A stretch of 64,000 nucleotides of DNA, from positions 8,209,501 to 8,273,500 of the forward strand of contig NZ_JBEJGX010000003.1 in the NCBI RefSeq assembly GCF_040253635.1, in the 5' to 3' direction. The notes under the pieces were generated by a model, which saw only the letters and a list, made by a program, of their open reading frames with translations, searched no databases and was not told the origin of the DNA. Numbering within the stretch: the first letter of the stretch is position 1; each line of letters starts with the position of its first letter. Source of the DNA: Streptomyces sp. Edi2. GTDB lineage: Bacteria; Actinomycetota; Actinomycetes; Streptomycetales; Streptomycetaceae. A program made the translations under genes and the position numbers. Positions 9,992 to 42,693 of this stretch are shown here, one piece after another.

Positions 9992-10085
9992 GCGGCTTAC
10001 GAGGGCGGGTTCGGCCGGGGCGGCCACGCTTCGTGCGTCCACCGAGGTCGGTGCGCGCCGTGTTTCCCTGGGAGATTCCGATCCT

Positions 10086-10589
10086 GTGAGCAGCAGCAAA
10101 CCGGCGTGGTCCGAGCGTGAGCTGCCGGTGTTCTTCCGGCGGTGGCGGAGCGACTGGAAGGACGAGGAGCTTGCCCCGGAGAACTACCTTGACTTCGAGG
10201 GCGGCCTGCGTTTCGTCCTGGCTGCGGCGTGGTTGTTCTGCCCCGAGACGGTCGAGTACCGCGGTGGCGTGTTCCTCGAGGAGCGCTTCAGTCAGGACAC
10301 TGTCGACGAGTGGTTCACGAACCTGGGCGACGATCGGAGACGCATCGAAGCGGTGACCAATCACGTCGAGTTGTGGGACACCTTCATCAACACCGCCCTG
10401 ACGGATGACGATCAGCTCGGGGAGGAACTGCCCCAGCTCGCACTGGCTCTGGGCGAGTGTTGGCAAGGTGTCCTGTCCGCGCGCTACTCCGACCGGGAGA
10501 TCACCGTCGAGGTGAGCGACGAGAAAGACGGCTCCTACGGGCCGACGGTGACCTTCTGGACATCTCCGGCTGACTCGGCCGCCGGCTAG
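10086..10589 (+). CDS. Hypothetical protein, acidic, unknown family
   Basis: 167 residues from a GTG at 10086, a good distance behind GGGAG. Soluble, Trp- and Asp/Glu-rich (SWFFRRW-like start, AAWLFCPETVEYRGGVFLEERF, ALGECWQGVLSARY). No membrane segment, signal or catalytic motif is visible. The acidic, single-domain look resembles immunity-type or SUKH-like proteins, but no toxin lies next to it, so this is not claimed. Ends in the shared palindromic terminator at 10616. Confidence 0.65.
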   Translation: MSSSKPAWSERELPVFFRRWRSDWKDEELAPENYLDFEGGLRFVLAAAWLFCPETVEYRGGVFLEERFSQDTVDEWFTNLGDDRRRIEAVTNHVELWDTFINTALTDDDQLGEELPQLALALGECWQGVLSARYSDREITVEVSDEKDGSYGPTVTFWTSPADSAAG

Positions 10590-10615
10590 CGCGACAGGTC
10601 CCCCCGCTTCTCCGG

Positions 10616-10655
10616 CCCCGTCGCGGGCCCTGGTCGACCAGGGCCCGCGACGGGG
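10616..10655. terminator. 40-bp perfect palindrome, bidirectional terminator
   Basis: A perfect 20+20 base inverted repeat with no unpaired centre (arms CCCCG-TCGCGGGCCCTGGTC and its complement). It lies between the convergent hypothetical gene (ends 10589) and the collagenase gene (ends 10730). Position and symmetry fit a terminator for both strands. Confidence 0.85.
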
Positions 10656-10729
10656 ACCGCTTCCGCGCCGCCCGGTGTCGCGACCGTGAGGTGAGGCTGC
10701 CGCCGCCGGGGTGGGTGGGGCCTTGTAGG

Positions 10730-12784
10730 TCAGGTGGAGGGTCGGGCCGGAGGCCGCTGTACCGGAGGCCGCTGTGCCGGAAACTGGTGTGCCGGAGGTG
10801 TGGTGGTCGGGCCTGGGGTGGCGGCGCAGGCGCCGGTCGCGCAGGCGGTGAGCCAGGAGTCGAAGTCGGCGTCGTAGCGGGTGCCGATGTCGGTGTGGTA
10901 GACGGCGTAGCCGCCGGTGTAGTCGCCGGTCCGGAAGTGCTCCAGCATGGTGGTGACGTCCGAGGGGTGCTTCTCGACCATGTAGCGGGCGGCGAGGTAA
11001 CCCCAGGGGTAGGTGCGGGTCACGTTGCTGTTGGCGTAGGTGGTCTCGAAGAGCGTGCTGAGTGCGTAGGTGTGCTTGCCGGCTTCGGTGACCGCCTCGT
11101 CGTCGGTGATACCGCGGTAGCTGTACGAGACATACTCGGCAAGACCCTCGATCCACCACACGTCGGGGACCGCGGTCTGCTGGCCGAAGTCGCCCTTCAT
11201 GTCGTCACGGGCGTCGAGATAGTGCGTGTACTCGTGGTTGAGGTTCCAGATCCGGGCCGGAAAGCCGTCGTCGGAGCTCTTCTGGTACATGACGGAGGTG
11301 GGCTGGTTGTCGGGCTGGGTCGGGTCTCCGACCATGGTGATGCCGCCGTTGTTGGTGTCGACACCGAAGATGGCTCCGGCGTAGGTCTGGTAGTCGTTGC
11401 GGCTGCCGAACACCACGAGTCGGACGGTCGATTCGTACTGGTGGGGTATCGGGCCGTTGTCCTTCACCAGGCCATGGAAGTACGGGTCCTGGCCCAAAAT
11501 GCTGGCGCAGGTGGCATCAAGCTCCCCGGGCGTCAGAGACTGCGCCTTGATCGTGTGCGTGGCATCGCAGGTGTGGGTGATCGGCAGCGCGGCCTTGGTC
11601 AGCTGGTCCGACAGGTCGCAGACGCCGAAGTACGAGCAGTTGGCTTTGTCGTAGGCGTCGGCCTGGGAAGCGACGGTGACCCACAGGGGCGCGGTCGGAC
11701 CGCTGATCTTCGAGGCGTCCAGCAGCCCCTTCATCAGCGGCCGGACCTTGTCCTGGAGAGCCGGGTGTTCGACGTACCGTGCCACGTTCATGCCGGCGTT
11801 GGAGTCCAGGTAGGAATTGTCGGTGCCGAGCAGGTCCAGGTGGTCGAGCGCGAACGTGTTGAGGGTGTCGATGATGCTCGGATCGGCGGTGACCGCCTTG
11901 ACGTAGTCGGGGTTCCAGTTTCCGCGCCAGAGTGGGGTGTAGACGTCGTTGACGGCGGCCAGCATGCTGGGGATGGCGTCGTAGGAGCTGTTGTAGCCGC
12001 TCAGGACCTGCCGGTAGGTGCTCAGGTAGCGGGCCTGTTCGTCGGCGCTGTCCGTGAGGATGATGACCTCGCCCAGGACATCGCCGTTGTCCGACGTGAC
12101 GTCCTTGGAGTGCGAGGTGGCGAGGAAGGCGTCCAGGCCGCCTTCGGTGGCCGCGGCCAGGGTCGGGCCGTAGCTGCCGACATCGTCCGGATGGTTGGAC
12201 TGCACGTAGTAGCCGGCGCGGAGGAACAGCACGAGCTGCCACACATGGTCCGAGTTGTCACCGGGGTACGTCGTCGCCCCGCTCCGGAAGGCGTTGGCGA
12301 CGGTGACCATCTGGTCCTCGCGAAAGACGTCGTACGCGTCTTTGCCGGTGACGCTGAACAGGGTGTTCACGCAGTCCGTGGTCGAGGCTTCGACGAACGT
12401 GACCAGTTCGGATCCGGTCCGGCTGCCGAAGTCGGACGGGCTGCAGGAGGCCGCCGCGCCGTGCTTCGCGTCGTGTTCCGCTCCGTGCTCCGCGCCATGG
12501 TGCCGTGCCGCCGCAGTCGAAGAAATGGGGGGATTCTTCGCGCTGAGCGGGGGGAGTTGGGCGATGTCGAGCGGCCGGCCCCGCAGTGCGGGCCTTTCGT
12601 TGGTGCCGGCTGCCGGGCCGGTCGGCGGTACGGGGTGGGGGGTGGTCCGGGGCCCGGTGACGGCCTGGGCGGCGGCCGGCGGGCGGGGCGCCGCCAGTGC
12701 CGGCGCGGAGAGCAGACCGGCCGTGGCAACGCAGGTGGCCAGTCCGCCGACCACATATCTGGGCAGGGGGAAGCGGTAGCGCAT
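10730..12784 (-). CDS. Secreted M9-family collagenase-type protease
   Basis: 684-residue exported zinc metalloprotease. The signal peptide is about residues 1-32 ([21 protein letters not shown]). A Pro/Ala/His-rich linker follows to about 120, then the activator and peptidase domains of microbial collagenases. The zinc motif is HEYTH at 517-521, followed by the third-ligand Glu at 546 in [12 protein letters not shown], the usual spacing for M9. It lacks the C-terminal collagen-binding and PKD domains of clostridial enzymes, as short Streptomyces members do. Acts on collagen or gelatin-like substrates outside the cell. ATG start; no operon partners. Confidence 0.92.
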
Positions 12785-13262
12785 CCATGCTCCTTCGTGG
12801 ACAGATGCGCCTCGGGATCGAGCTGAGGCGTGAGTGGCACCGTCTCAGCGGATGCGGACCGCCGACAATAAGGTGTGACATAGCACCTGAAGGGAATGTG
12901 CCATAACATCCGGCCGGTGGCGGGGGTACGGGGGCGGTGCCGGTCTCGACGCCACTCGCGCAGGGGTTCGACCCATACGAAGATGGAGCACGTGCCGCAG
13001 TGGATGTACTCGCTGTCCTGGCAGGCGTCGTGACCATCGCGGACCCGGCCTCCGAGGCGTCAGCGCATGCCTCAACTCGGCAGTCGGAGCCTTCAGCGGC
13101 CACGATGACGATCTCTTCGGAGGCGGCTTCGGGAGTGCAAAGCCGACACGCACGTCGAGCTGCCGCTCTGGGAACAGGGCTTGCCGGTGCCTCTCCCCGG
13201 TTTGGTGAAGACCAGTACGTCCTCGTGCTGGACGACCGAGAGGGGGATGCCTGGCCTCCGGC
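12785..13262. other. Spacer between protease and peptide cluster
   Basis: 478 bases with no supported gene. A plus-strand open frame at 12937-13341 contains a protein-like patch (FGEDQYVLVLDDREGDAW near 13200-13255) but runs antisense into the condensation-domain gene and has no ribosome site, so at most it is a remnant. An AT-richer patch at 12865-12910 may hold the collagenase promoter. Confidence 0.4.
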
Positions 13263-14552
13263 TCAGCGGGCCGTCGACGGCCGGACGAGTGCACCCGGCA
13301 GTTCGCGCAGCCGGGCCAGGAACACGCGGACGAAGCGCTGAGCGGTCGCCGGGGTGAGCACGTCGTCACGGTACTGCAGGACGCCGTGGACGCCACCCCG
13401 GTCGTATTCAACGATCAGGGCCACGTCGAACTTGGCCTGGGCATGCGGGATGCGGATCCTCCGGCATTCCAGGCCGGTCAGGCGCAGCGGTGTCGGGGTG
13501 TCCATGCTCAAATAGATCTGCGGGAAGGTCCGCGGCCTCGGCCGCACGTCCCGCAGCAAGTGGCCGGCCACCGCGGTGAAGGGGATGTCCTGGCGGGCCA
13601 CCGCCGCGGCCAACTCCCGTGCGCCGGAGCGGACATGCTCACGGACCGACAGCGCCAGGCCGCTGTTCGCGGGCACCAGCACCGTGTTGACGAAGCAGCC
13701 GACGACCGCCTCGAAGTCCGGCAACCAGCGGCCGGCGGTGACGCAGCCGAGCAGGAAGTCCTCCAGCCCCAGCACCTCCCCGGCCGCGCGCCGGCAGGCG
13801 GCCGCCAGCAGCATCGGCACCGTCAACCGGGCGGCGACCGCCGCCTCGGCCAGGCCTTCGACGGCGCCGTCCCATTCGCCGATGACCTCGCGGCGCGACG
13901 CCCCCGCCCCGGCCCCGGTCCGGGGCAGCGGCTGGAGGGCGAGCCCCGTAAGGCGATCCGCCGCCGCCCGGGCCCGTTCCCGGGCCGCCGCCGACTCGGC
14001 GGCTGCGAGGTACGCCAGGTTGGCGTCGCACACGGTGGGTCCGCCGGCCTCCGGCAGGCGGGCCGGATCGTCCCAGCAGTCCCGCAAGGTCTCCAGTAGC
14101 ACACGCAGTGCCATCCCGTCAGCCACCAGGTGATGCCAGACCATGAGCATCACGTGGCGCTCGGGCGTCACCGACAGCAGTAGACAGCGCGTCAGCGGGC
14201 CGCCGTCCAGCGCCGGACCGGTCAGCGACTCGTGGTCCAGCACATCGGCTAATTCACCCTCGGCGACGTGACGGTGCTCCACCTCGACGATGTGCTGGTC
14301 GAGGTGCAACTCGGGGACGCCGCGGAGCCCCGGGAGCACCGCGGCGCCGAAGGCCGGATGCGCGGCGACGGCCGCGCGCAGAGCGGTGGCGAAGCGCTTC
14401 GGGTCCAAGGGGCCGAGCAGTTCGTAGCAGGCGTGCTCCCGGTAGAGGGTGGGATCGCCGGTCATCCGGTCCCGCAGCCAGATGGCGAACTGCGCCGGGC
14501 TCAGCGGTGCGTGGCGGGCGCCCGCCACGGCCGGGGTCGATCGCACGGCCAT
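13263..14552 (-). CDS. Stand-alone NRPS condensation-domain protein
   Basis: 429 residues forming one complete condensation domain. The first motif is PLSPAQFAIWLRD near residue 17. The catalytic HHxxxDG reads HHLVADG at 140-146. DFLLGCVTAGRW and VGCFVNTVLV are the later core motifs. No carrier or adenylation domain is attached. Its ATG lies 1 base after the synthetase stop, so translation is coupled. As the last enzyme of a cluster without a thioesterase, it may release the product by condensing it with an amine or alcohol, or perform a second peptide bond; both are inferences. Confidence 0.9.
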   Translation of the reverse strand: MAVRSTPAVAGARHAPLSPAQFAIWLRDRMTGDPTLYREHACYELLGPLDPKRFATALRAAVAAHPAFGAAVLPGLRGVPELHLDQHIVEVEHRHVAEGELADVLDHESLTGPALDGGPLTRCLLLSVTPERHVMLMVWHHLVADGMALRVLLETLRDCWDDPARLPEAGGPTVCDANLAYLAAAESAAARERARAAADRLTGLALQPLPRTGAGAGASRREVIGEWDGAVEGLAEAAVAARLTVPMLLAAACRRAAGEVLGLEDFLLGCVTAGRWLPDFEAVVGCFVNTVLVPANSGLALSVREHVRSGARELAAAVARQDIPFTAVAGHLLRDVRPRPRTFPQIYLSMDTPTPLRLTGLECRRIRIPHAQAKFDVALIVEYDRGGVHGVLQYRDDVLTPATAQRFVRVFLARLRELPGALVRPSTAR

Positions 14553-14553
14553 C

Positions 14554-17500
14554 TCAGAACACCGACCCGCGCGGGTCGCCGGCCAGCGCGGCCAGTGCCT
14601 CCTGGTAGGCGAGCGCTGTGCGGTGGAGGTCTTCCGCTTCCCACAGCGCGCAGTCGCCCGTGAGCTCGATGCGCATGCCGTCCCCGACGGCGTCCAGCGC
14701 AACGTCGACCACCAGCGGGTAGCTCGACTTGTCCCACATACGGGTCGCGCCGACACGCGGGCCTTCCCGGTGCGAGTCCAGTCCCGCCCATAGGCGGAAG
14801 TGCGCGAAGTTGAGGACCACGTCGAACAGCGGCCGACCGGCCAACTCCCGGATCGCGGGGTACGGGAAACGGCGGAACGGCAGCACGGCCCGCTCCTCGT
14901 CGAAGGCCCGGCGTGCCAGGACGTCCCACGTCACGTCGGTCAGGTCTGCGGACACCGGCACGATGTTGAGGAACAGCCCGACCAGCCGGTCGGCCCCGAC
15001 GACTTCGGGTCGGCCGTTGAGCTGGAGCCCGGAGACCGGCCGGTCGGAAACGGTCTGTGCGCCGACCACCGACAGGTGCGCTGCCAGAACCAGACTCTTC
15101 AGCGGGAGGCGCAGGTCGGCGGAGGCCTTCTCCAGCGCGGTGCGCAACGAACCGGGCAGCGGCCGGGAGACCCGGCGGCGATCCGCGCCCCGGCTCGCCG
15201 CGCCCGGCCTCAAGGGCGTCGGCTGGAGGCTGGAGCAGCGCTCGCTCCAGAAGGCGCGCGCCTCCCGCGACTCCAGCATCCGCTGCTCCAACCGGACGAA
15301 TTCCGCGTAGGACACAGCCGGTTGGCGGGGCACCGGAGTGCGGCCGTCCCGGGCCTCGGCGTACGCGGCGACGAGGTCGGACAGGAAGACCGTGTCGCTC
15401 CAGCCGTCCATCACGGCGTGGTGGAAGCCGTACACCAGCCAGAACGAGGCGTCGTCCCGAGCCGCAGCGTACACGCGCATCAGCGGGGCCTCGGCCACGT
15501 CGAAACGGCGGCCGGCGGAGGCCGCGATCCGGGCGAGTTCCTTCTCCTCCTGCTCGGCGTCGAGCCCGCGCAGGTCGTCGAGGACGAGCGGGAGGCGCGG
15601 CTCGGGCTCGACGACCTGGCGGGGGCCGGTCGCGGCGCCGAGGTCGAAGCGGGTGCGCAGCACCTCGTGCGTGGTAGCCACCACGTGGAGCGCGGTACGC
15701 AACGCGGCGGCGTCGAGCGGCGCCTCGATCCGGTGAGCCATCACATCGTGGTAAAGGGCTCCGCCCGTGGCTGACGCCTCGAAGATCAGACCGAGCTGGA
15801 GCCGGGTCGCCGGACACGAGGTCTCCCGCGCCGGGACGGGCGATCCGTCCGGCGTCCCGGGAACACCGGCAGCCGCCGCGGCGACACGGTTCGCCGCCGG
15901 AACGTCGGGCACGGCGGTGCCGGCCGCGGCGACCTCGGCGGCTTCCTCGTCAGGGGGGCAGATGTGCCGCAGGACCGGGTTTTCGAACATGTCGACCAGT
16001 GAGACCCGTACGCCGCGCTCCTCGGCGTCGGCGATCGCACGGATGGCGAGCATGGAGTCACCGCCGAGCGCGAAGAAGTCGTCGTCCGGACCGACCTTCG
16101 GAACGCCCAGAACATCGGCCCAGATCTCGGCGAGGACCGTCTGGTTGCGGCCGCGCAGCACCGCGTCCCCGGCTCCCGGGGCGGGGACCGGGACGGGGGC
16201 CGGGGCGGGGACCGGGCGTTCGCGGAGCCGGCCGCGGTCCAGCTTGCCCGACGGAGTGCGCGGCAGAGCGTCCACCAGCACGACCCGGGACGGCACGAGG
16301 TGTCCGGGCAGCGTCGCGGCCAGAGCGGAACGCAGACCGGAGGGCTCGGCGTGGTGACCGGGCTCGGCGACGACGTAGGAGATGAGCTGTTTGCCGCCGT
16401 CCGGTGACGCCGCCGCGACCGTCCCGGCGTCCCGCACCCCCGGCAGAGCCAGCAGGGCCGCCTCGACCTCCTTGGGCTCAATGCGGAAGCCGTTGACCTT
16501 CACCTGATCGTCAACTCTGCCCACGAACTCGATGACGCCGTCGGGGCGTCGGCGGCCGAGGTCCCCGGTGCGATACATGCGGGCGCCGGGGACCCCGGCG
16601 AACGGGTCGGGCAGGAAGGAGCGCGCGGTCAGGCCGGGGCGCCCCAGGTAGCCGCGGGTCACCCCCCGGCCGCCGATCCACATCTCGCCCCGCTGCCCTG
16701 CCGGTACCGGCGCGAGCTCGGCGTCGAGCAGATGGACGGCAACGGAGCCGAGCGGGCGGCCCACCGGGATGGCGCCGTCCGCGCCGTCCGCGACCCCGAC
16801 CCGGTGGGCGGTGGCGAAGGTCGTGGTCTCGGTCGGACCGTAGCCGTTGACGAGGACCACCGGCCGGGAGAGCAATGCACGGTGTGCCAGGAAGGAGGTG
16901 GCGCGTTCAGCGGACAGCACGTCGCCGCCGACCACCACACGCCGGACGCCGTCGAGGATGCTGATCCGGCCGCGCACCACCTCGTGAAAGTGCGCGGGCG
17001 TCAGGAAGAGCGTGCTGACCGCTTGCTCGCGCAGCAGGTCACCGAGTTCCTCGATCGCCTGGTAGGAGGCCGCGGGCAGCACGAGGCGGGCCCCGTTGGT
17101 GAGCGCGCCCCAGATCTCGAAGGCGGAGGCGTCGAAGGCGACCGGGGCGAGCTGGAGGAACGTCTCGTCCTCGGAGAAATCGGCGTAGTCCTGGTCGCTC
17201 ACCAGGCCGAGGGCGTTGCGGTGGCTGACGACCACGCCCTTGGGCCGACCGGTGGAACCGGAGGTGTACAGGACGTAGGCGGCGCCGTCGGCCGGCACCT
17301 CGGGCCGACGTACCGGTATGTCGCCCGCCCCCTCCGGCCCGCCCGGGGTGACGTGGACCGGGCCGCCGGGCAGTTCGGCGCCCGCCGGGGCGATCACGGC
17401 GGCGGCACCGCAGTCGTCGAGCAGGAAGCGAACCCGCTCGGCCGGGTAGTCCGGCGGGACAGGCACGTAGGTGGCGCCGGCCCGCAGCACGGCCAACATC

Positions 17501-17776: not shown

Positions 17777-18949
17777 TCAGGCAGGAAGCATCAGTATGGG
17801 AAGGCCGGCGGAGCCGCCGACGAAGGCGGAGTAGACCGGCGTGGCCGGTCCGGCCGGCCGCAGCTCCGCCACCTGGTCGCGCAGCTCGCCGAGCAGGATC
17901 TCCAGTTCCTCGCGGGCCATCCGCGCGCCGAGGCAGAAGTGCGGGCCGTGGGCGAATGTCAGGTGCCGGTTGGGCTGCCGCCCGACGTCGAAGCGGTCCG
18001 GCTCGGTGAACTCCCGTTCGTCGTGGTTGGCGGAGGGGATCCACACGGTCGCCACCTCCCCCGCCGCCAGCGACCGTCTGTGCAGGTCGATGTCCTCGGC
18101 CAGGGAGCGGCCGAGGTGGAGAACGGGGCTGGTCCAGCGCAGCACTTCCTCCACCGCGTCGCTGAGCCCGACCTCACCGTCGCGCAGCCGGCGCCACTGT
18201 TCCGGGTTTTCGGCCAGCGCCCGGATGCCGCCGATCATCGCGAGCCGGGTGGTCTCGTCACCGCCGAGGATGAGGCTGTAGCAGTTGAGGACGACCTCGT
18301 CCTCGCTCAGCCGCTCCTCGTCGATGCCACTGTCGGCCAGCAGGGACAGCGCGTCGCGGCCGGGGCTCGCAGCGCGGGTGCGGGCGAGTCTGGCGAAGTA
18401 CAGCAGCAGTTGGGCCTGAGCCAGCACGAACGGCCGGTCGGCTTCCGGCACGTCGAGCATCGTGCAGATCGCACCGAGCGGGATGTGCGCCGCGATGTCA
18501 CGGGCGGCGTCGACGGGCTCACCGGCCGCACCACGCAGGACGGCCGCCGCCAGCAGCCGCCGGGTGGTGGTGCGGACGTGGTCGCCGATCTCGTTCCGTG
18601 CCTCGGCGGTGAACGCCCGGCGCATCCGGGTGCGCAGGACGGTGTGCCGTGGCGCGTCGCTGACCACCAGCATTCGGTTGCCCGCCGAGTCCCCGTCGCC
18701 GAGCAGCGTGGTGAGCATGTTGCCGCGCGCCGAGGAGAACCGGGCGGTGTCCCGGCTCACGCGCAGGGCGTCCGCGTGCCGGCTCAGCACCCAGAATCCC
18801 CGGTCACGTCCCGGGGGCGGCTCGTGCCAGGCGACGGGTTCGTCCCTCCGCAACCGGGCAAAGAGGGGACGCACGTCGCGTTCCGCGTGGGTCCGCGGAT
18901 CGGTGAGGTCGACTCCGGCGAGTACGGAGGAGGTCGGGATGATGCTCAC
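17777..18949 (-). CDS. Cytochrome P450 of the NRPS cluster
   Basis: 390-residue soluble bacterial P450. I-helix GGDETT 229-234 (oxygen-binding), ExxR at 268-271 (EVLR), and heme-thiolate Cys339 in FAHGPHFCLG. The GTG start overlaps the stop of the truncated C-domain frame by 4 bases (GTGA). Lying directly beside an A-T protein, it recalls the NovH/NovI arrangement, where a P450 beta-hydroxylates an amino acid held on the carrier protein. That role is an inference. The frame is open upstream to 19045 with condensation-domain-like sequence, so a fused form is conceivable. Confidence 0.9.
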   Translation of the reverse strand: MSIIPTSSVLAGVDLTDPRTHAERDVRPLFARLRRDEPVAWHEPPPGRDRGFWVLSRHADALRVSRDTARFSSARGNMLTTLLGDGDSAGNRMLVVSDAPRHTVLRTRMRRAFTAEARNEIGDHVRTTTRRLLAAAVLRGAAGEPVDAARDIAAHIPLGAICTMLDVPEADRPFVLAQAQLLLYFARLARTRAASPGRDALSLLADSGIDEERLSEDEVVLNCYSLILGGDETTRLAMIGGIRALAENPEQWRRLRDGEVGLSDAVEEVLRWTSPVLHLGRSLAEDIDLHRRSLAAGEVATVWIPSANHDEREFTEPDRFDVGRQPNRHLTFAHGPHFCLGARMAREELEILLGELRDQVAELRPAGPATPVYSAFVGGSAGLPILMLPA

Positions 18950-30973: not shown

Positions 30974-31043
30974 GTGCCGGGTGCCGGGTGCCGGGTGCCG
31001 GGTGCCGGGTGCCGGGTGCCGGGTGCCGGGTGCCGGGTGCCGG
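30974..31043. repeat. Heptamer tandem repeat (GTGCCGG)10
   Basis: Ten perfect copies of GTGCCGG between the XdhC gene and the sigma-factor gene. The 30883-31153 spacer also contains two copies of GTGCCG-GCGCCGCGGTTCTGA-like sequence near 30898-30966. The sigma promoter should lie between 31044 and 31153. Confidence 0.95.
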
Positions 31044-31153
31044 GCGCCGCGGTCTGTGATGACCGTCACCCCGGAACTTTGCGCTGCGTGTCGACCGGAT
31101 GCCGTGCGCCAGGCGTATGCGAGGGGAGACCGAAAAGAACCGGGGAGTGGCCG

Positions 31154-33704: not shown

Positions 33705-34478
33705 ATGACCGTCTTCGTCGGAACGTCCGGCTGGCAGTACAAGGACTGGCGCGGCGTCCTCTACCCGCACGACCAGCCGCAGCGGCTGTGGCTCGAGGAG
33801 TACGCGCGGCAGTTCGCCACCGTCGAAAGCAATGCCGCCTTCTACCGGCTGCCCGAGGAGAAGACCTTCGCCACCTGGCGGGAACGCACCCCCGGCGGGT
33901 TCGTGATGGCCGTCAAGGCGAGCCGCTATCTGACGCACATCAAGCGGCTGCGGGATCCGCAGGAGCCGGTCGGGCGGCTGATGTCGCGCGCCGCCGCCCT
34001 GGGCCCCCGGCTCGGGCCCGTCCTGCTCCAACTGCCGCCCACGCTGCCCGCGGACGCCGGGCTGCTCGACGCCTGCCTCGGCTGCTTCCCCGCCGGAACC
34101 CGAGTGGCGGTCGAGCCGCGCCACACCTCGTGGTGGACCCCGGAGATCCGCACCGTGCTGGAGCACCGGGGTGCCGCACTGTGCTGGGCGGACCGGCGCT
34201 CGCGGCCCGTGACGCCCCTCTGGCGTACCGCCGACTGGGGGTATCTGCGTCTCCACGGGGGCCGTGCGGAACCCGGGCCCCGCTACGGCAGCCAGGCGCT
34301 CACCACCTGGGCACGACGGATCGCCGACACCTGGCCGGAACGGGCCGACGTCTACACCTACTTCAACAACGACACGGGCGGCGCCGCCGTCCTCGACGCC
34401 GCCCACTTCGCCCGCGCCGCGTCGGCCACCGGACGTTCCGTGAGCCGTACGCCGCCCGGGCGTGGCTCCGCCCGCTGA
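33705..34478 (+). CDS. DUF72-family TIM-barrel protein
   Basis: 257 residues of the DUF72 (YecE-like) family. FVGTSGWQYKDWRGVLYP at the start, FATVESNAAFYRLP, FVMAVKASRYLTHIKRL, VLLQLPPT, VAVEPRHTSWW, YLRLHGG and YTYFNNDTGG are its conserved blocks in order. Biochemical role unknown; structures in the family are TIM barrels. ATG start at 33705. Single gene. Confidence 0.93.
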   Translation: MTVFVGTSGWQYKDWRGVLYPHDQPQRLWLEEYARQFATVESNAAFYRLPEEKTFATWRERTPGGFVMAVKASRYLTHIKRLRDPQEPVGRLMSRAAALGPRLGPVLLQLPPTLPADAGLLDACLGCFPAGTRVAVEPRHTSWWTPEIRTVLEHRGAALCWADRRSRPVTPLWRTADWGYLRLHGGRAEPGPRYGSQALTTWARRIADTWPERADVYTYFNNDTGGAAVLDAAHFARAASATGRSVSRTPPGRGSAR

Positions 34479-34539
34479 CCGCGGGGGCGGGATATATCTG
34501 CGCTCGTACCGCCGGACGAACGAGCGAGGTGAGGCACGG

Positions 34540-34833
34540 ATGATCCGCAGACGGGTGGTGGTCTCCGGAGACGTGCAGGGGGTGTTCTTCCGCGACACCT
34601 GCCGGCGCCTGGCCGACGAGCACGGAGTGGCCGGCTGGGTACGCAACCTGTCCGACGGGACGGTGGAGGCCGTGTTCGAGGGGGAGCCCGAGCACGTACG
34701 GAAACTGGTGGACTGGGCACACGAGGGTCCCCCCATGGCGACCGTCAACACCGTGTCCGTCCATGAGGAAGAGCCGCAGGGACTCACAGGCTTCGAGATC
34801 CGGCCGACGCCTGGCGGATTCCAGGAAGGGTGA
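34540..34833 (+). CDS. Acylphosphatase
   Basis: 97-residue acylphosphatase. The active-site block VVVSGDVQGVFFRDTCRRLA provides the phosphate-binding loop and Arg. The catalytic Asn is in VAGWVRNLSDGTVEAVFEGE. Hydrolyses acyl phosphates such as 1,3-bisphosphoglycerate in the cytoplasm. ATG 34540 behind GAGGTGAGG. The stop lies within a short palindrome GGGTGATCACCC. Confidence 0.95.
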   Translation: MIRRRVVVSGDVQGVFFRDTCRRLADEHGVAGWVRNLSDGTVEAVFEGEPEHVRKLVDWAHEGPPMATVNTVSVHEEEPQGLTGFEIRPTPGGFQEG

Positions 34834-34852
34834 TCACCCCTCTGAAGCGCCG

Positions 34853-36364
34853 TCACCCCATCAGCAGCGCCGCGTCCCAGCCGTCACGCTCGGTCGGTGC
34901 GGTTCCCCGGCGGGCGTCGGCGTAGTCGGCCAGTACGAGGGCGATTCCGGTGGCGCCGTCCAGCAATCCGGGGTGGTGGATGCGGTGCGGGGCGGTCCGC
35001 AAAGAGGGTGACGGCGGGGGTGCGAGCGGCAGAACTTGGGTGTAACCGAAGGGAGTTCGCTCGTCGAATGCCGCGATGAGCTCCCGGGCGAGGGCGTCCG
35101 CGGCCGTCCACAATGCGGGGCGTCCGGTGGCGGTGGCCATGCGGACGGTGGTGTGGAGGACGCCCGCACGGCCGTGGCAGAGGCCCGGGTCGTCGGACGC
35201 GGGTCTGTCGGACGCTGACCCACCGGACGCCGGCCCGTCGTGGGTGCGAGGTGCGAGGGCGCCGATCGCCTCCTCGGCCAGTGCTGTCAGCCGGTGGTCG
35301 CCGAGCGCCTGACCGGCCAGGTGGAGGCTCCAGGCGATACCGGAGGTCCCGTAGCACCAGCCCGGTCGGCTGCGTGTCCCCGCCCGCGGGGAGACTCGGC
35401 GGTGGGCAAGCTCTCCGGGGCGGCCCGGGAAGGCGACCCGGCCGGGCCATTGCATGCCGTGGCCGTCGGTGTACCCGATGCTCTGCACCCAGTCGGCCAT
35501 CCGCCGGATGGCGTCCGGCATCCCCGGTACCCGGTGCCCGGAGCGGTGGGCCAGTGACAGCAGGGCGAGCGGGCCGCAGATCCCGTGGGCGACACCGACG
35601 TTGAAGTCACCTCCCGGGAACTCCTCGCGGTCGCGCGGGACGAGGTACCGGTCGGGTGCGCACCACCATCCGGGCACCTGGATGCCGTCTTCTTCCGCGG
35701 GGCGATCGGGGCGATCGGGGCGGCCGGAGTGGCCGTAGCGGCCGGGGTCGGCGAGGCGGACGGGGTGGCTGATGCCGACGAGAAACTGCAGGACGTCGCC
35801 GAGGGCGGGTACGCACCGTTCGTCGCCGTGGTCGGCCGCCAGCAGGAGGCTGCGCCCCTCTCCCGCCAGGCCCGCGATCGCATCGTAGTCGCCGTACGCC
35901 AGCCCGGGCCCGTGTTCTTGCCGTCGTGCGACGAGGTGGGTGACGCGGGCCCGGACGTAGGCGGCATGGACCTCGACGCAGCGTGCCAGCAGCCGGGTGT
36001 ATCCGCCGTGTGCGTTCGCGTGCAGCCGCGCGGGCAGCAGCAGGTCGCCGACCGCGGCCTGCCCGGCGTCGCGGGCCGCCGCCACGGCCGCCGCGAGATG
36101 GGAGTGCCCGAGGGCCGCGTACCGGGCGTCGTTGCGGGCGCACCGGGTGTGCAGCAGCGCGATGCCGGGGTGTCCGGTCAGCAACGAGGCCGGCTGCCAG
36201 CCGGACTGCGGCAGCTCGGGCGGCAGCGCGGCGAAGGCGTCACGGGCGGCGCCGGCCACCTGTTCCGGTGTGCTCAGCAGGTCGGCGACGCGGTGGGCGA
36301 CGGCCGACGCCGCGTCGCACAGTTCCTCGGGTGCGGTCCCGGTCACGGGTGTGGTCCCGGTCAT
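34853..36364 (-). CDS. lanC: Lanthionine synthetase C-like cyclase (LanC)
   Basis: 503-residue LanC. It catalyses addition of Cys thiols to dehydroalanine/dehydrobutyrine in the precursor. Zinc ligands are present: Cys337 (WCYGTSG), Cys396 and His397 (LCHGRAG). The catalytic His260 motif AHGICG is also intact. N-terminal ~50 residues and the Gly/Ser/Asp-rich loop at 375-393 are extra. ATG 36364 overlaps the LanB stop by 4 bases (ATGA). Last gene of the lanthipeptide operon. Confidence 0.95.
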   Translation of the reverse strand: MTGTTPVTGTAPEELCDAASAVAHRVADLLSTPEQVAGAARDAFAALPPELPQSGWQPASLLTGHPGIALLHTRCARNDARYAALGHSHLAAAVAAARDAGQAAVGDLLLPARLHANAHGGYTRLLARCVEVHAAYVRARVTHLVARRQEHGPGLAYGDYDAIAGLAGEGRSLLLAADHGDERCVPALGDVLQFLVGISHPVRLADPGRYGHSGRPDRPDRPAEEDGIQVPGWWCAPDRYLVPRDREEFPGGDFNVGVAHGICGPLALLSLAHRSGHRVPGMPDAIRRMADWVQSIGYTDGHGMQWPGRVAFPGRPGELAHRRVSPRAGTRSRPGWCYGTSGIAWSLHLAGQALGDHRLTALAEEAIGALAPRTHDGPASGGSASDRPASDDPGLCHGRAGVLHTTVRMATATGRPALWTAADALARELIAAFDERTPFGYTQVLPLAPPPSPSLRTAPHRIHHPGLLDGATGIALVLADYADARRGTAPTERDGWDAALLMG

Positions 36365-39300
36365 CGGTTGTTCCGCTTCCGGCCGAGCCACAGGGCGAGC
36401 GCTTCACGGGCCGTCGCATGGGCCGACAGTTCCTGTTCGGGGCGGGGGCCGAACAGCCGGTTGCAGTGCAGATGCGTCAGGCTCAGGGCGATCCGGCCCG
36501 TGCGGTCCCCGTCCCCGTCCCCTTCACCGGAGAGAAGCACGTCGCGCAGACCGGCCAGCGCCGGGCCGCGGGTGCGCCACCCGACGCCCCAGCCGTCCGC
36601 GGCGGCCGGCGGCCCGGGCCTGCCGTGCGGGTCCAGCAGTGCGGCGAGAGCCTGCTTCCGGGCCCGCGGTACGTCCTTGCGATGCGCCAGGACCGAGGGG
36701 GTGCTGAGCCAGCCGAGCGCCTGGTCCGGGGACCCGAGGTGGGTGAGGATGTCGAGGATGCCCAGCGCGGCCGGCAGCGTCGGGTTGCCCAGTTGGTCGG
36801 GTGACATGGCCAGCAGAGTGACGGCGGATTCGCTGTCGGCGTGGAAGAAGCGCTCGGCGTGACCGAGCGCGGCCGGGCCGCCGTACCGCTCGGTCTCGGG
36901 CTCATAGGTGTCCAGGACCACCTTGGCGAGCAGCCCCGCCTCCGTGCGCGCCTGCGCCCAGGAGTGGAGCTCGGGCAGCAGCACCGGCCACAGGGATTCC
37001 GGCTTGCCGTGGAAGCGCAGCCGGATGTGGGGAGCCGGATCCTCGTAGCGGAGGAAGAACCACAGGTCGGCCCCCGCTCTGCTGAGCAGGCCGGGGTCGG
37101 TCAGCGGTGCGAGATGACGGGCCAGCACCTCCGTCTGGCGGGCCCGGGGCAGGTAGATCTTCGCGTAGAGCCATGCGCCACCGGGCAGTTGAGCGCGCGT
37201 TCCGCGGCCGCTGTCCGTGTCCCGTGTCAGGGGCGGGACCGGCACCGGCGCGGGGAGGGGCCTCCGGGTGTCGGGGGAGCGGGAGGAGTCGCGGTCGGTA
37301 GGCCGGGCGAAGACGGGAAAGAAGAACTCCGCGGCATGGGAGCCCTCCGGCCCCCGGAGCCACTGCCTCCCGGCTGCGCCTGCGAACTGCTCCACCACCG
37401 TCAGGCCGGGGGAGCGCCGCACCTCGTCGCGGAAGGCCATGAGGTGCAGCGGGTCGCCGAGGTCGGCCGCGACGCGGTGGTCCGCCTTGGTGAGCAGCAC
37501 CTGCCGCGGCACGTCCCACCGCTGCCGCCAGCGCCCGACCTGCCGCTCCCACTCCTCGTCCCCGCCCCCGGCCGCGGCGCGCAGCGCCCGGTCCGGCAGC
37601 CAGCGCGCCGGGCAGAGCACGGTCCGGCCGTGGCGCACCCGGGGCAGTGCGGGGGCCGAGGCCCAGCTGCCCCAGCTCCACGGAGCGCAGAAGGCCTGCC
37701 CCTCCTGCCCGAGTTCGAGCAGGAACCTGGCCACGTACGGAAGATGGCCGCTGCTGGGACGGAGCATCGAGTACGACAGCGGCCGCACCCTTCGGCCGGT
37801 CGAGGTGTCGACGAGCCGGAGGCGGTCCGCGTCCGCGTACACCGCCAGGTTCTCCAGGCGCAGATCGTCTGCGGTCCCCGCCACGGCGGGGCCGACGCCC
37901 AGGGGGAGGCGATGGGACAGCCACTGCGGGACGGCGGACACATTGCCGGAACGCGCCACCCTGGGCCGGTAGGCGACACACGCCGGGATCTCGTCCTGCG
38001 GTGCGGTCCGTTCGGTGTGCCGGGCCAGCTCCCGGATCCGGCCGGCCGACCGCTCGTCGAGCACCGGCGCGAACCGGCTGAACACCGCCCCGGCCAGCGG
38101 TGACACCGCATGAGGGCTGAGCACCAGATCGAAATCCCCGCCGCACAGGGCCTCCCAGCCCGGTGCCACCAGCTCGGCTCCCACCTCCATGCTCGGCGGG
38201 GCCGGCCCGCGCTCCGCCGGTTCCAGGGCGCGTACGGCCTCCTCGTCGAGGTCCACCTCCCCGCTGCCGCGGCGGGCGGCGTCCATCAGCAGCTCGCCGA
38301 GCACGCGGTCGCGCGCGAGGGCGTCGGCGCCGGGCGCGGCGGGCGACGGGGCACCGTGCTGCCGGTCCTCGCGACGAAGTCCGAGCCCCCGGGTCTCGTC
38401 GAGCAGTTCCAGCACCGGGACGGGCCGGTCGGTGCCGTACCGCTCCAGAAAGGCCAGATGGTAGTCGCGGAGGTGCGGGTTGCCGCGGTGGACGGGGGAG
38501 GTCCGCCACAGCACCGTCGCGGCGCGCTCCGCTTCCCGGGCCACTTCGTGCGGCAGGGTCAGCCGTACGTCCAGCGCCAGATCCGCCTGGAGGACGTCCG
38601 TGGCCGGCTGCAGGGCCTGCATCCGCGCACGGGCCGCGGTCAGCCGGGCATGCCGGGACTCCGGTGGCGCGGCGTCCAGGGAACACAATTCTGCTCTGAT
38701 GGCGTGCAGTTGACGAACCGTCGGGTGATCGACGCCGTGCAGCAGGTCGCAGATGTGGTCGAGCGGGGTGGTGCAGTCGGGCGGCGGGGTCAGCTCGCTG
38801 AGCAGGAAGTGACCGCGGACGAGCTGCGCGATGCTGTTTTCGACCGCGCCCTCGGGTGCCTGAGGGAACTCCCGCTTTCCCTCCTCCACCAGTGCGGGGA
38901 ATGGCGTGGGCCGGGCCGCGGCCGCCAGGAGGTGACGGACCACCCGGGTGTGGCGTACCGAGCCGGTCCATTGCCGTGTCCCGGTGCGGTCATGATGGTC
39001 GACCAGGACCAGCCGGCCGTCCCGTACGGTGTGCAGGTTGTTGGCGGTGAGCCGTGAACGCTGCCATGCGGCCGGGACATCGAGCAGCGTCGCCAGCACG
39101 CCGTCCAGCCAGTCCGCGTCGGGCCGGGTCGCACTGCGCCCGCCGACCAACGGCTCCCGCGCGGGGGCAGCTCCGAACCCGGCGGCACCGACCCCCGCGA
39201 AGAAGCCGAACGGGGTGGGGCGGTGGGACATCCGCGAGTGGTACTTCGCCAGTGACACCGCGATACGGCGCAGCGATTTGAGCCTCAGCCGCTCTCCCGT

Positions 39301-39537
39301 GACGGCTCGGTCCACCTCCGCCGCGAGGCTTGCGCTGGCGAGGGTCACCGCTTCCATGAGCCGTGGATCGGCGGCGAGCCGGGTCACCTGACGGCGCAGC
39401 CAGCCCTCTTCGTCCACTTCCCCGGCGGACGGCCGCGGCGGCCGGGCAGGTGTGTCATCGGGGGGCAGGGGGAGTGCCGCGGCCCGTACCAGAGCCACCT
39501 CCCCGCACGTGAAATCGACGTCGCTCTTGCCGCCCAT
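36361..39537 (-). CDS. lanB: Class I lanthipeptide dehydratase (LanB)
   Basis: 1058-residue full-length LanB. The N-terminal ~750 residues form the glutamylation domain (KSLRRIAVSLAKYHSRMSHRPTPFGFFAGV is a hallmark). The C-terminal SpaB_C-type elimination domain (~780-1050) includes GGAWLYAKIYLPRARQTEVLARHLAPL, WFFLRYEDPAPHIRLRFHG and TYEPETERYGG. It attaches Glu from Glu-tRNA to Ser/Thr of the precursor, then eliminates it. Both halves in one polypeptide are as in NisB-type systems, not split as in thiopeptides. Start ATG 39537 is 121 bases after the precursor stop, with a hairpin between. Confidence 0.95.
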   Translation of the reverse strand: MGGKSDVDFTCGEVALVRAAALPLPPDDTPARPPRPSAGEVDEEGWLRRQVTRLAADPRLMEAVTLASASLAAEVDRAVTGERLRLKSLRRIAVSLAKYHSRMSHRPTPFGFFAGVGAAGFGAAPAREPLVGGRSATRPDADWLDGVLATLLDVPAAWQRSRLTANNLHTVRDGRLVLVDHHDRTGTRQWTGSVRHTRVVRHLLAAAARPTPFPALVEEGKREFPQAPEGAVENSIAQLVRGHFLLSELTPPPDCTTPLDHICDLLHGVDHPTVRQLHAIRAELCSLDAAPPESRHARLTAARARMQALQPATDVLQADLALDVRLTLPHEVAREAERAATVLWRTSPVHRGNPHLRDYHLAFLERYGTDRPVPVLELLDETRGLGLRREDRQHGAPSPAAPGADALARDRVLGELLMDAARRGSGEVDLDEEAVRALEPAERGPAPPSMEVGAELVAPGWEALCGGDFDLVLSPHAVSPLAGAVFSRFAPVLDERSAGRIRELARHTERTAPQDEIPACVAYRPRVARSGNVSAVPQWLSHRLPLGVGPAVAGTADDLRLENLAVYADADRLRLVDTSTGRRVRPLSYSMLRPSSGHLPYVARFLLELGQEGQAFCAPWSWGSWASAPALPRVRHGRTVLCPARWLPDRALRAAAGGGDEEWERQVGRWRQRWDVPRQVLLTKADHRVAADLGDPLHLMAFRDEVRRSPGLTVVEQFAGAAGRQWLRGPEGSHAAEFFFPVFARPTDRDSSRSPDTRRPLPAPVPVPPLTRDTDSGRGTRAQLPGGAWLYAKIYLPRARQTEVLARHLAPLTDPGLLSRAGADLWFFLRYEDPAPHIRLRFHGKPESLWPVLLPELHSWAQARTEAGLLAKVVLDTYEPETERYGGPAALGHAERFFHADSESAVTLLAMSPDQLGNPTLPAALGILDILTHLGSPDQALGWLSTPSVLAHRKDVPRARKQALAALLDPHGRPGPPAAADGWGVGWRTRGPALAGLRDVLLSGEGDGDGDRTGRIALSLTHLHCNRLFGPRPEQELSAHATAREALALWLGRKRNNR

Positions 39538-39584
39538 TGCTCTCTCCGCCCGCCCGTTCCCCGCCCACCGCTTCTCCGGACGAC

Positions 39585-39627
39585 GGTGCGGGGCGGCGGG
39601 ACGATGTCCCCGGTGCCGCCCCGCACC
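39585..39627 (-). terminator. Attenuator-like hairpin between lanA and lanB
   Basis: A 13-bp perfect stem (GGTGCGGGGCGGC and its complement) encloses a smaller 5-bp stem (GGGAC/GTCCC). It lies 32 bases after the precursor stop. A partial terminator here would make precursor transcript exceed enzyme transcript, as in many lantibiotic operons. The function is inferred. Confidence 0.8.
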
Positions 39628-39658
39628 GCTGTCTCAGCAGCTTGTCCCAGGGGCTCGT

Positions 39659-39799
39659 TCAGCAGCTCCAGGAGGTGACCGGACAGACCTGCGTCATGAG
39701 CTTCGACTCCTGCGCACTCATGGCGACCGTGGCCGAATCCGTGATTTCCATGTCGAGGTCGAGGTCGAATTCGTCCATGCTGGTGATGATGTTCTCCAT
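39659..39799 (-). CDS. lanA: Class I lanthipeptide precursor (LanA)
   Basis: 46-residue peptide. The acidic leader carries F-D-L-D-L at residues 11-15, the FxLD-type LanB recognition motif. The C-terminal part, from about residue 28, holds Ser28, Ser32, Thr36, Cys39, Thr42, Ser43, Ser45 and Cys46, ending VCPVTSWSC. Two cysteines allow two thioether rings. ATG at 39799 follows GGAGGGG at ideal spacing. No other peptide-like frame precedes lanB. The leader cleavage point is not evident, and no double-Gly motif is present. Its position before lanB and lanC confirms the assignment. Confidence 0.92.
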   Translation of the reverse strand: MENIITSMDEFDLDLDMEITDSATVAMSAQESKLMTQVCPVTSWSC

Positions 39800-40260
39800 G
39801 GTCCCCTCCAAAGAAAGATGGTTAATCCCGGAGCGTGTCCGGCTGTTGCAAAGGGCTTTCGCAACCGGCGGTCATTTCACCTTCGGCGCGTATGTCATGT
39901 CAAGCATGGAGAGGTGCGCTCCTCTTCTCGCGGATCCCGGAATGACGGAATCCGGTTCGGTTCCTTGCGACTGCTTATTCCGGTGATAGGGCGAGGGGGT
40001 GGAGGTCACCCTCCCCGGCCGTTCGAGCCATCAAGAATGGCTTGAACATCACCTGAGGGAAAGAGACTTGCTCGTACCTGACAAAAGCGCACGAGGGGAA
40101 AGAGGTGCGACGGAATGCCGCTGTGCATCCGGTCGGGCGCCGTCAAAAGGCCCTTGTCTCCGGCCTTCCGGGTATTCGGCTCGTGGTGAATGCCGAATCA
40201 TCGGGCCGTGAAACCGGTAAGGCGGCGTGAGTTCCCTCACTCCGGGATATGGGGCTGAAA
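39800..40260. other. Leader/promoter region of the lanthipeptide operon
   Basis: 461 bases without a supported gene, lower in GC than the surroundings. A stem-loop GTTGC..GCAAC lies at 39845-39865, in the precursor's leader. On the minus strand TTGACA occurs at about 39895-39901, a possible -35 element; no convincing -10 was found. A further short minus-strand frame there (about 11 codons) is too small to call. Confidence 0.5.
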
Positions 40261-41289
40261 TCAGAGGAAGTCGACTTCGGAGGTGAGCCGCACTCCGGTA
40301 CGGCGCAGAACCTCCTGGAACACGATGTCGATGGCCCGGGTGAAACCGGCGGCGCTCGCGCCCTCCTCGGCCACGAGGGTGTAGTGCAGGGAGGAAACCC
40401 GTACGCCGGTGACGATCGGCCGGCCCAGCTCGAATCCGGCCTGCCGGATGAGCCAGCTCGCGCTGACGCGTATCGAGCCGTCGGGGAAGCGGTTCACCGG
40501 TGCATGGCGCGCCCGCAGGTCGTCGGCCTGGGCGGGGGAGATCTCGGGGCTGAGGAACACGCTGCCGACCGAGCGGTCGTCGGTGCCACTGCACCCCAGC
40601 ACCATGCCCTTGCTCTTGCGGACGGTGAGCACCGCCCGGGCCACCTCGTCCAGCGGCAGCCTGCTCCCGACCGGTACATCGAGTTCGGCGGCGACCGTCC
40701 GGTAGGTGACCGGCGCGCTCAGCGCGGACCGGCGCAGCGCAAAGACCAGGCTCAGCACGGTCCAGCGGCGGGAGCGTTTGAAGACGCTGGTGCGGTGGCC
40801 CAGGCCGCAGGCCGCGGCATCCATGGTCACCTTGCGGCGCAACGTCCAGTCCCATGCCGTCACTTCCACCAGGGTGTCGGCGGTCTCCTGACCGTATGCG
40901 CCGACATTCTGGACGGGGGTGGCGCCGGCGGTCCCGGGGATGCCCACCAGCATCTCCATGCCGGTCAGGCCCTCGGCGACGGTGGCGTCGACCAGATCCC
41001 CGAGCGGATGACCGGCCTGGACCTCGACCAGCACCCGCCCGTCGGCGGTGCTCCCCGCCATGCGTATGCCCTTGGTGCTCATCCGCAGCACGGCGCTGTC
41101 GCATCCGGCGTCGCCGACCAGGACATTGCTTCCTTCGCCCAGGCAGACGGGCTCGCCGGGGAAGACGCCGGCCAGTGCCACGAACTCGGGGAAGTCCGCG
41201 GAGTCGTACAGCTCGATGAGGGCCGCCGCCGGCCCGCCGATGCCCAGCGTGGTCATCGGCGCGAGCGGTGCCTCGTGGGTGACGCGCAT
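40261..41289 (-). CDS. murB: UDP-N-acetylenolpyruvoylglucosamine reductase
   Basis: 342-residue MurB, which reduces UDP-GlcNAc-enolpyruvate to UDP-MurNAc with NADPH and FAD. FAD-binding motifs: TTLGIGGPAA, LGEGSNVLVGD and GIPGTAGATPVQNVGAYGQE. The catalytic Ser is in GSVFLSPEIS, and the C-terminal block is SASWLIRQAGFELGR. It is the type I form. Start ATG 41289 chosen for CAGGAGAAACAGGAAC upstream; longer frames lack a site. It lies upstream of and parallel to the lanthipeptide operon, 460 bases away. Confidence 0.95.
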   Translation of the reverse strand: MRVTHEAPLAPMTTLGIGGPAAALIELYDSADFPEFVALAGVFPGEPVCLGEGSNVLVGDAGCDSAVLRMSTKGIRMAGSTADGRVLVEVQAGHPLGDLVDATVAEGLTGMEMLVGIPGTAGATPVQNVGAYGQETADTLVEVTAWDWTLRRKVTMDAAACGLGHRTSVFKRSRRWTVLSLVFALRRSALSAPVTYRTVAAELDVPVGSRLPLDEVARAVLTVRKSKGMVLGCSGTDDRSVGSVFLSPEISPAQADDLRARHAPVNRFPDGSIRVSASWLIRQAGFELGRPIVTGVRVSSLHYTLVAEEGASAAGFTRAIDIVFQEVLRRTGVRLTSEVDFL

Positions 41290-41679
41290 GTGTTCCTGTT
41301 TCTCCTGGCTGCCGTTCCGGGGCCGGAGGGCCGCCACGGGCGAGGAACCGGCCCGGCCGGCCGGGGTGATCGGCGGGACGCTGTCCATGGTGATCACAAC
41401 GGAGCCGGACCGGTACCGCACCGATGCGCCGAACATTGGCCGGAATGAGGGGCGGAGCGGCGTGCGGCGAGCCGGGAACGGCAGGGGGAAGCGGGAACGG
41501 CAGGGGAAAGGGATTTCGGGACAGCCCTTTGGAGCGGCCCCGGCGGCCGGCAACTCCCGCACGAGCACGCCACCGGCCGTTCCCGCTCCCGCTCCCGCAC
41601 GAGCACGGCAGCGGCCGGTCGTGCGGGAGCCGCCGGCACCGGAGCCGCCGCCCCCGTAGAGCGCCGATGCGGTGTGGCG
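41290..41679. other. Spacer with GGGAACGG-type repeats
   Basis: 390 bases without a gene. It contains direct repeats (GGGAACGGCAGGGG, twice near 41470-41512) and inverted copies of CCCGCACGAGCACG (two near 41557-41617). It must hold the murB promoter; no specific element was identified. Confidence 0.45.
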
Positions 41680-42693
41680 TTACGAGACGATGTCCCGCAG
41701 CGGCTTGCCCTCCAGGTGGCCGAGGACATTCTGTACGGCGGCCAGCGCGATGCGGACCAGCGTCTCGCGGGTGACCCCCGCGACGTGCGGGGAGAGCACC
41801 ACGTTCGGGGCCTTGAGCAGGCGCAGGGCCGCCGTGGGCGGTTCGGGGTCGAAGACGTCGATGCCGGCGCCGGCGAGGGTGCCGGCTGCCAGGGCGTCCG
41901 CGAGAGCGTCCTGGTCGATCAGGGCGCCACGGGCGGTGTTGATCACAAAGGCGGTGGGCTTGAGGAGCGCCAGGCGCTCCGCGTCGAGCAGATGGCGGGT
42001 CCGCTCGGTGAGCGGGGCGTGCAGGGTGATGTAGTCGGAGGTGCGCAGCAGTTCGTCGAGACCGAGATGACGGGCGCCGCCGAGGCGGGCCGCGGTCTCC
42101 GGGGCGACCGGCTTCGGCCCGGTGTAGACGATGTCCATGTCGAACGCGAGGGCGCGGCGGGCGACTTCCTCGCCGATGTGGCCGAGGCCGATGATGCCGA
42201 GGGTCTTGCCGGACAGCTCGGTGATGGACTGCTGCAGGCGCGGCAGCGCCCAGTCGGCCTCGGTGAGCGCCGTATGGGCCGCGACCAACTGCTTGGCCAG
42301 GGCGAGCATCAGGGCGAAGGTCTGCTCGGCGACGTTCTGCTTCTCCGCGCCGCTGGAGCCGATGTTGCAGACCGGGATCCCCCGTTGGCGGGCCGCCTCC
42401 AGGTCGATGTAGTCGAAGCCGTGGCTGGCGCACTGGACGAGCTCCAGGTCCGGCGCCGCGGCGAGATGTCCGGCGGTGACCGGGCCCAGGCCGGTGATCA
42501 GGACATGGGCCTCGCGCAGCGCCGCCGGGTCCTCGTCCGTCGTCTCGACGATGGTGACCCGGGCCTGCTGGGGGAAGAGGCCGGCCAGCGCGGCTCCGGC
42601 GGCGCGGCCGCCGACATGCGGCGAGATGACCGCGAGGACGTTGCGCACGGGGTGCGGCGAGGCGGTGGAGGACGACTCCGGCGAGGTGGTCAT
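41680..42693 (-). CDS. D-2-hydroxyacid dehydrogenase family protein
   Basis: 337-residue NAD-dependent 2-hydroxyacid dehydrogenase (phosphoglycerate-dehydrogenase-like). Rossmann motif LGIIGLGHIGEEVARRA; catalytic Arg in VINTARGALID; Glu in GIDVFDPEPP; His in VLSPHVAGVTRET. Acts on a D-2-hydroxyacid/2-ketoacid pair; the exact acid cannot be told. Its ATG overlaps the stop of the upstream oxidase by 4 bases, so the two form an operon. Confidence 0.93.
   Translation of the reverse strand: MTTSPESSSTASPHPVRNVLAVISPHVGGRAAGAALAGLFPQQARVTIVETTDEDPAALREAHVLITGLGPVTAGHLAAAPDLELVQCASHGFDYIDLEAARQRGIPVCNIGSSGAEKQNVAEQTFALMLALAKQLVAAHTALTEADWALPRLQQSITELSGKTLGIIGLGHIGEEVARRALAFDMDIVYTGPKPVAPETAARLGGARHLGLDELLRTSDYITLHAPLTERTRHLLDAERLALLKPTAFVINTARGALIDQDALADALAAGTLAGAGIDVFDPEPPTAALRLLKAPNVVLSPHVAGVTRETLVRIALAAVQNVLGHLEGKPLRDIVS

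Follow-up and report, generated by a model that had tools for sequence, protein, structure and literature searches.

A minimal class I lanthipeptide operon encoding a very small predicted core in Streptomyces sp. Edi2 and its relatives

Streptomyces sp. Edi2 carries, on contig NZ_JBEJGX010000003.1 of its 9.8 Mb genome (assembly GCF_040253635.1), a compact set of genes for a class I lanthipeptide, comprising a precursor (lanA), a dehydratase (lanB) and a cyclase (lanC), here referred to together as lanABC. We analysed these genes within a stretch of 64,000 nt (the window), to which the coordinates in Table 1 refer. The three genes form a single minus-strand operon, and when their coordinates and strand in the initial annotation were re-checked, both proved correct. 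The lanA frame runs from the ATG at 39799 to the stop at 39659, behind a strong ribosome-binding site (GGAGGGG). Its translation, MENIITSMDEFDLDLDMEITDSATVAMSAQESKLMTQVCPVTSWSC, displays the 46 residues, the FDLD leader and the short core with two Cys that had been described before. The start of lanC is most likely the ATG at 36364, which overlaps the lanB stop, and this is preferred over a GTG at 36391.

Table 1. Coordinates of the lanABC genes and associated features in the window.
Feature	Coordinates	Strand	Description
lanA	39659..39799	(-)	46-residue precursor; FDLDLD leader; predicted core ends TQVCPVTSWSC
lanB	36361..39537	(-)	1058 residues; class I dehydratase, full-length, with glutamylation and elimination domains
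lanC	34853..36364	(-)	503 residues; zinc cyclase; start codon overlaps lanB stop (ATGA)
lanA-lanB hairpin	39585..39627	(-)	13-pair GC-rich outer stem
Inverted repeat	39839..39871	(-)	imperfect, CCGnnGGTTGCGAAA..GCAACnnCCGG; just downstream of -10 box
Promoter-like pair	39874..39903	(-)	TTGACA - 18 bp - TGAAAT; upstream of lanA, conserved
murB2	40261..41289	(-)	second UDP-MurNAc dehydrogenase gene, directly upstream of lanA

Pfam searches identified in LanB both domains required for a class I lanthipeptide, PF04738 (E 8e-169) and PF14028 (E 2e-52), and in LanC, encoded as a separate cyclase, PF05147 (E 5e-30). The closest solved relatives of LanB by sequence are 5ehk, presumably MibB of microbisporicin, 9g04 and NisB. 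The best-matching solved chain, 5ehk, aligns over residues 55-912 (E 1.5e-122), whereas NisB aligns over shorter stretches only, the best being 780-914. For LanC the closest solved relatives are 8byk and NisC (2g02); GVAHG and WCYG align with both, CHG aligns with 8byk, the NisC alignment stopping before it, and DYD aligns with NisC only inside a non-significant stretch. The LanB of the window contains RPTPFG, HIRLRF, ETERYGG and THLHCNRLFG. We take the motifs of both enzymes to be catalytic or zinc-binding residues as in NisB and NisC, with WCYG and CHG as zinc ligands, and on this assumption the earlier description of full-length enzymes with intact LanC zinc ligands holds. Across the 11 loci at which the cassette is intact (loci are labelled L and genomes G below), plain text patterns, which are perhaps too strict, found GxAHGI, WCYG and CHG in every LanC and DYD in 10 (not L039), and in LanB RPTPFG in all 11, ExERYGG in 10 (not L016), HIRLRF in nine (not L020 or L041) and THxHxNRxxG in five. 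Elsewhere in the genome of strain Edi2, one more open frame, of 365 residues (L026, C3:3075368-3076360), matches PF14028 and may serve another peptide pathway.

Intact lanABC was found in 11 Streptomyces genomes (G000, G348, G390, G294, G064, G424, G485, G048, G311, G285 and G454), and the ratio of non-synonymous to synonymous substitution rates (dN/dS) was 0.33-0.41 for lanB (five pairs) and 0.32-0.56 for lanC (four pairs); therefore, lanABC is not a chance assemblage. LanA is 100% identical in two other genomes (G348, G390) and 70-98% identical in six more. The genome samples searched overlap. In the genus, LanA matched 9 of 392 genomes, the window genome included (E<=0.01; one match being a remnant), and an alignment of nine precursors (A1) matched 11 of 293 genomes of the order, all of the same genus, of which one (G516) is broken and one (G233, L043) was judged a chance match and dropped. 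A ten-row alignment (A2) matched 9 of 394 genomes of the family and 1 of 346 of the phylum, namely the window genome. Searching genome contigs with LanB gave three loci, in S. rimosus subsp. rimosus NRRL WC-3904 (74% identity), S. pinistramenti (40%) and a Polyangiaceae metagenome-assembled genome (30%). LanB relatives occurred in 92 plasmid records, all at <60% identity, and a plasmid search with LanA found none. No NCBIfam family matched LanA at E<=1, which leaves it outside the named precursor families, including the FxLD family, although short peptides can escape such searches. The precursor had been called new-looking and not recognised as a named compound; it is indeed unfamiliar as far as the comparison with NCBIfam goes, but it is no orphan, being part of a small family in Streptomyces. 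It may be among the precursors listed with PMC7268733.

The precursor adjoining lanB combines an FxLD-type leader with a C-terminal core of Ser, Thr and Cys, and ten aligned precursors are invariant at E10-L15 (EFDLDL), C39, P40, T42, W44 and C46. They share the motif C-P-x-T-(S/Y)-W-x-C, at the C-terminal end or no more than three residues from it, the residues beyond C46 being Gly in L019 and L040 and AAE in L021. Codons were compared in nine subtype A genes, taking codons 1-31 as leader and the last 15 as the core part. In the leader, 19 codons have amino-acid-changing differences and two synonymous ones only, against three and five, respectively, in the last 15 codons. Mean dN and dS were 0.168 and 0.141 in the leader and 0.070 and 0.231 in the last 15 codons (36 pairs), figures that are rough given the small number of sites and the non-independence of the pairs. 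The core is more constrained than the leader, which is unconstrained overall on this measure, yet keeps EFDLDL invariant. Residue 45 varies freely (S/H/R/N) and T42 is invariant, which makes T42 a more likely donor than S45 for the ring to C46. The spacing for the first ring is T-x-x-C in seven subtype A rows and S-x-x-C in L021. The most likely pattern predicted from these sequences is two thioether rings, T36-C39 (T-Q-V-C) and T42-C46 (T-S-W-x-C). In subtype B, represented by L020, L041 and the broken L042, the sequence is GTGTC(L/I)SCP(V/I)TSWHC, in which a third Cys is present and the first-ring spacing differs.

The promoter-like pair with its inverted repeat, the hairpin and murB2 were absent from the initial annotation. 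Upstream of lanA, TTGAC is present in 10 of the 11 aligned loci (not L020), including loci with unrelated flanks, and TGRAAT follows it by 17-18 bp in nine (not L020 or L039); the operon apparently possesses a promoter of its own. The syntenic group preserves the inverted repeat best; in L018, L019 and L040 it is blurred, and in L020 and L041 it is not evident. The repeat is a possible operator. Further copies of the repeat were considered as a pointer to a co-regulated exporter, but at up to three mismatches this is its sole copy in the genome. A small open reading frame (ORF) at 39872-40009 was considered as an extra precursor and rejected as coding, having no family match and overlying the promoter-like region; its relatives share 61-68% protein identity over 33-34 residues in L014 and L015, and it has no match in L016-L021, L023 and L039-L043.

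The 124-nt gap between lanA and lanB has a folding energy of -67.7 kcal/mol, compared with -56.1 on average for shuffled sequences (z -3.27; none of 200 shuffles as good). In ten relatives, the gap, GC-rich throughout, gave z of -2.9 or below in three, -2.0 to -2.7 in two and above -1.3 in five. The outer stem pairs fully in eight of the 11 loci, at 12 of 13 positions in L016 and L041, and at 6 of 13 in the same register in L020, which forms a 17-pair stem of its own; at pairs 3, 10 and 12, at least one locus has both partners exchanged with the pairing preserved. An Rfam scan of 34000-42000 gave no match. Hairpins in other lantibiotic operons point to a role in dosage, and by analogy this one probably raises the precursor over the enzymes.

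We propose that lanABC works as a self-contained cassette for a class I lanthipeptide and makes a small bicyclic peptide, a reading to which we give a probability of about 0.7 on the strength of sequence comparisons. The operon would be driven by its own promoter, and the hairpin after lanA would lift the precursor above the enzymes. The LanB family draws on glutamyl-tRNA, and LanB would use it to dehydrate Thr and Ser in the LanA core, after which LanC would close the two rings, most likely as predicted above. The product would be a bicyclic peptide of ~11-13 residues with its terminal ring closed by the last cysteine, and leader removal, as well as export if there is any, would be carried out by general machinery encoded elsewhere. 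Several points weigh against this proposal. The product is a prediction from its genes, with lanthionine or methyllanthionine expected in it. The family is rare, both in the genus and, with a single match, in the phylum. The minimum-energy fold of L019 is without the hairpin stem. Because subtype B (L020, L041) has a third Cys and no T-x-x-C, a single ring pattern does not fit all ten precursors. Finally, two remnants indicate that the cassette can be lost: in G280 (L021, 8880-9416) the lanA-like ORF is intact, but the lanB similarity behind it covers only ~100 residues, and in G516 (L042, ~8540-8670) the subtype B lanA is frame-broken, whether as a relic or through an assembly error, and no lanB match near it is convincing. 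These two remnants, together with the missing export and immunity genes, would also suit a locus that is itself the decaying remnant of a larger cluster and has no product. We consider this highly improbable, as the frames are open with no inner stops, dN/dS of lanB and lanC is below 0.6, and core, promoter-like pair and hairpin are conserved.

The cassette occurs in six genomic settings. Six loci (the window, L014-L017 and L039) share one of these, between a DUF72/acylphosphatase-like pair and murB2, and the other five (L018, L019, L020, L040 and L041) each lie between different genes. In a LanB tree of 12 rows, the window groups with L014 and L015 (100/100) and then L016 (96/97), and L018, L019 and L040 form a group (98/99) though sited in three different places; the placement of L017, L039, L020 and L041 is not resolved. 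Taken by itself, the LanB tree fits movement or rearrangement of the cassette. The initial annotation found no transporter, protease, methyltransferase or immunity gene nearby, and this holds for the ten window neighbours scanned with Pfam, the acylphosphatase-like and sigma-factor-like genes being outside the scan; the transport-related match closest to lanA lies 7.5 kb away, at 47317, and is a solitary solute-binding protein. The scan of the other five settings took in part of the flanks, 30 genes in all (7, 6, 4, 6 and 7), and in it no exporter, protease or immunity family was found in two of the five. Accessory genes are seen at single loci: L020 has a trypsin-like protease, L019 a C39-like peptidase match and a weak M48 one, L040 a methyltransferase and L041 a major facilitator superfamily (MFS) protein. 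In L018 (S. rimosus WC-3904), two Imm49 immunity-protein genes lie at 14836-16929, ~1.3 kb past lanC; a further ORF there, at 17818-18678, resembles them by eye. The L041 MFS gene has orthologues beside murB2 in L016, L017 and L039, so two of the six settings have an MFS gene close to lanABC. Taken together, these partial scans cover 40 flanking genes and show no exporter or protease that occurs in three or more settings. With both enzymes identified by their domains and five further settings that share no recurring accessory set, the operon is as minimal as first described. We conclude that the lanABC cassette is genuine, conserved and minimal, that it belongs to class I of the lanthipeptides and that its small core family could be matched to no product in this analysis.

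The same scans bear on the role of the peptide, which may be antibacterial or signalling. It might be a non-antibacterial signal or developmental peptide that acts inside the producer or on its own cell wall and needs no export, since across the six settings no exporter, protease or immunity gene recurs save an MFS gene, seen in two of them. Exporters and proteases of general function could do the same job, however, and the patchy distribution (9/392) is unlike that of a developmental peptide, so that we regard such a role as improbable.

The only accessory block that recurs near lanABC, in two settings, is an MFS gene, a regulator with a tetratricopeptide repeat-like region and murB2. MurB2 scores 286.5 bits against the MurB equivalog model NF010478 (cut-off 231), which places it in that family; six other MurB models match below cut-off, e.g. 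TIGR00179 with 111 against 144.5. The usual murB of the window genome lies at 3.95 Mb and is 41% identical to murB2. At E<=1e-60, murB2 was found in only six of 121 genomes; in four (G000, G064, G048 and G036) it is full-length with an identity of at least 61%, and the other two have a fragment (G090) and a 45% match (G009). Three of these four carry lanABC (G000, G048 and G064, the carriers recognised in that sample). The G090 fragment (L074, 6677-7338) consists of two pieces, ~70% identical, in different frames, and that genome has no lanA match. Conversely, murB2 is present at 61% identity or more in eight of the 11 lanABC genomes, near lanA in seven of the eight, and its dN/dS is 0.16-0.39 (five pairs, including two among genomes without the MFS and regulator genes).

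Of the neighbours, only murB2 bears on self-protection, and these observations raise the possibility that it is a partner of lanABC in this role and that the functional unit is larger, with MurB2 as a spare resistant copy, the MFS protein exporting the peptide where present, and a peptide that interferes with cell-wall precursor synthesis. The block stands beside lanABC in L016, L017 and L039 and, in the other orientation, in L041 (e.g. 10862-14671). However, six of the seven close cases represent one inherited arrangement, the seventh (G485, L041) being ~4 kb off and on the other strand, and G311, G285 and G454 have lanABC with the usual murB only. The remnant genomes G280 and G516 lack murB2 as well. 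The block is seen with and without lanABC nearby, at six loci in all, L072 and L073 included: L073 belongs to G036, which has no lanA match, and in S. rimosus the block stands apart from lanABC, murB2 being on a different contig. An MFS match at E<=1e-60 is lacking altogether from the window genome, G348 and G390, which share an identical LanA, and for this reason the MFS protein was rejected as dedicated exporter in the window genome. A further point against the larger unit is the separate promoter-like pair of lanABC. The link between murB2 and lanABC, seen in two arrangements and missing from three lanABC genomes, is suggestive and not established, and we consider the larger unit unlikely, if somewhat less so than a signalling peptide. 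More doubtful than either is the further-reaching idea of a new bicyclic class I family that hits the synthesis of cell-wall precursors at a cytoplasmic or membrane step and whose producers rely for self-protection on a duplicated MurB instead of the usual LanI/LanFEG immunity. We know of no MurB-type self-protection route for lanthipeptides.

Among known systems, the core of microbisporicin also has T-S-W-S, in another ring context. Compared with nisin, the core encoded in the window is far shorter, and the lipid II motif SxxxCTP(G/S)C, as quoted in PMC7268733 and typical of nisin and gallidermin, is absent from all ten aligned precursors. The actinobacterial class I families I 1-4, as described in PMC7268733, share with lanABC an FxLD-type leader, LanB plus LanC and actinobacterial hosts, but they have a core Asp and an O-methyltransferase, whereas LanA has no core Asp and the ten scanned neighbours no PF01135. 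The same source counts 2698 class I precursors, with a characterised member wanting in most families. Birimositide, also a lanthipeptide from S. rimosus, was rejected as the known product: it is a two-component peptide (families II 9 and II 19, with a lacticin 3147-like alpha peptide) from strain WC3908, according to PMC7268733, and the strain of L018 and L022 is WC-3904. In S. pinistramenti SF28 (L023), LanB is ~40% and LanC 32% identical, and an ORF with an FDLD leader lies just upstream, but its core has one Cys (TTSVITFICH) and no CPxTSWxC. This 42-residue ORF (9739-9867) and the adjacent LanB/LanC pair (10001-14433) possibly specify another very small class I product.

The interest of the self-contained cassette lies in its small size, in its lack of linked export and immunity genes and in the murB2 lead. 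Three genes for a very small class I lanthipeptide would provide a handy test bed for ring formation by LanB and LanC, and would pose the question of how a peptide without its own exporter exits the cell. If the murB2 link were true, it would point to cell-wall precursor synthesis as the target.

Apart from the cassette, the window has short tandem repeats at ~30974-31058 (VPGAGCR in one frame), ahead of a sigma-factor-like gene, and a similar tandem run, LRAPGSG, occurs in L042 near 10070-10340.

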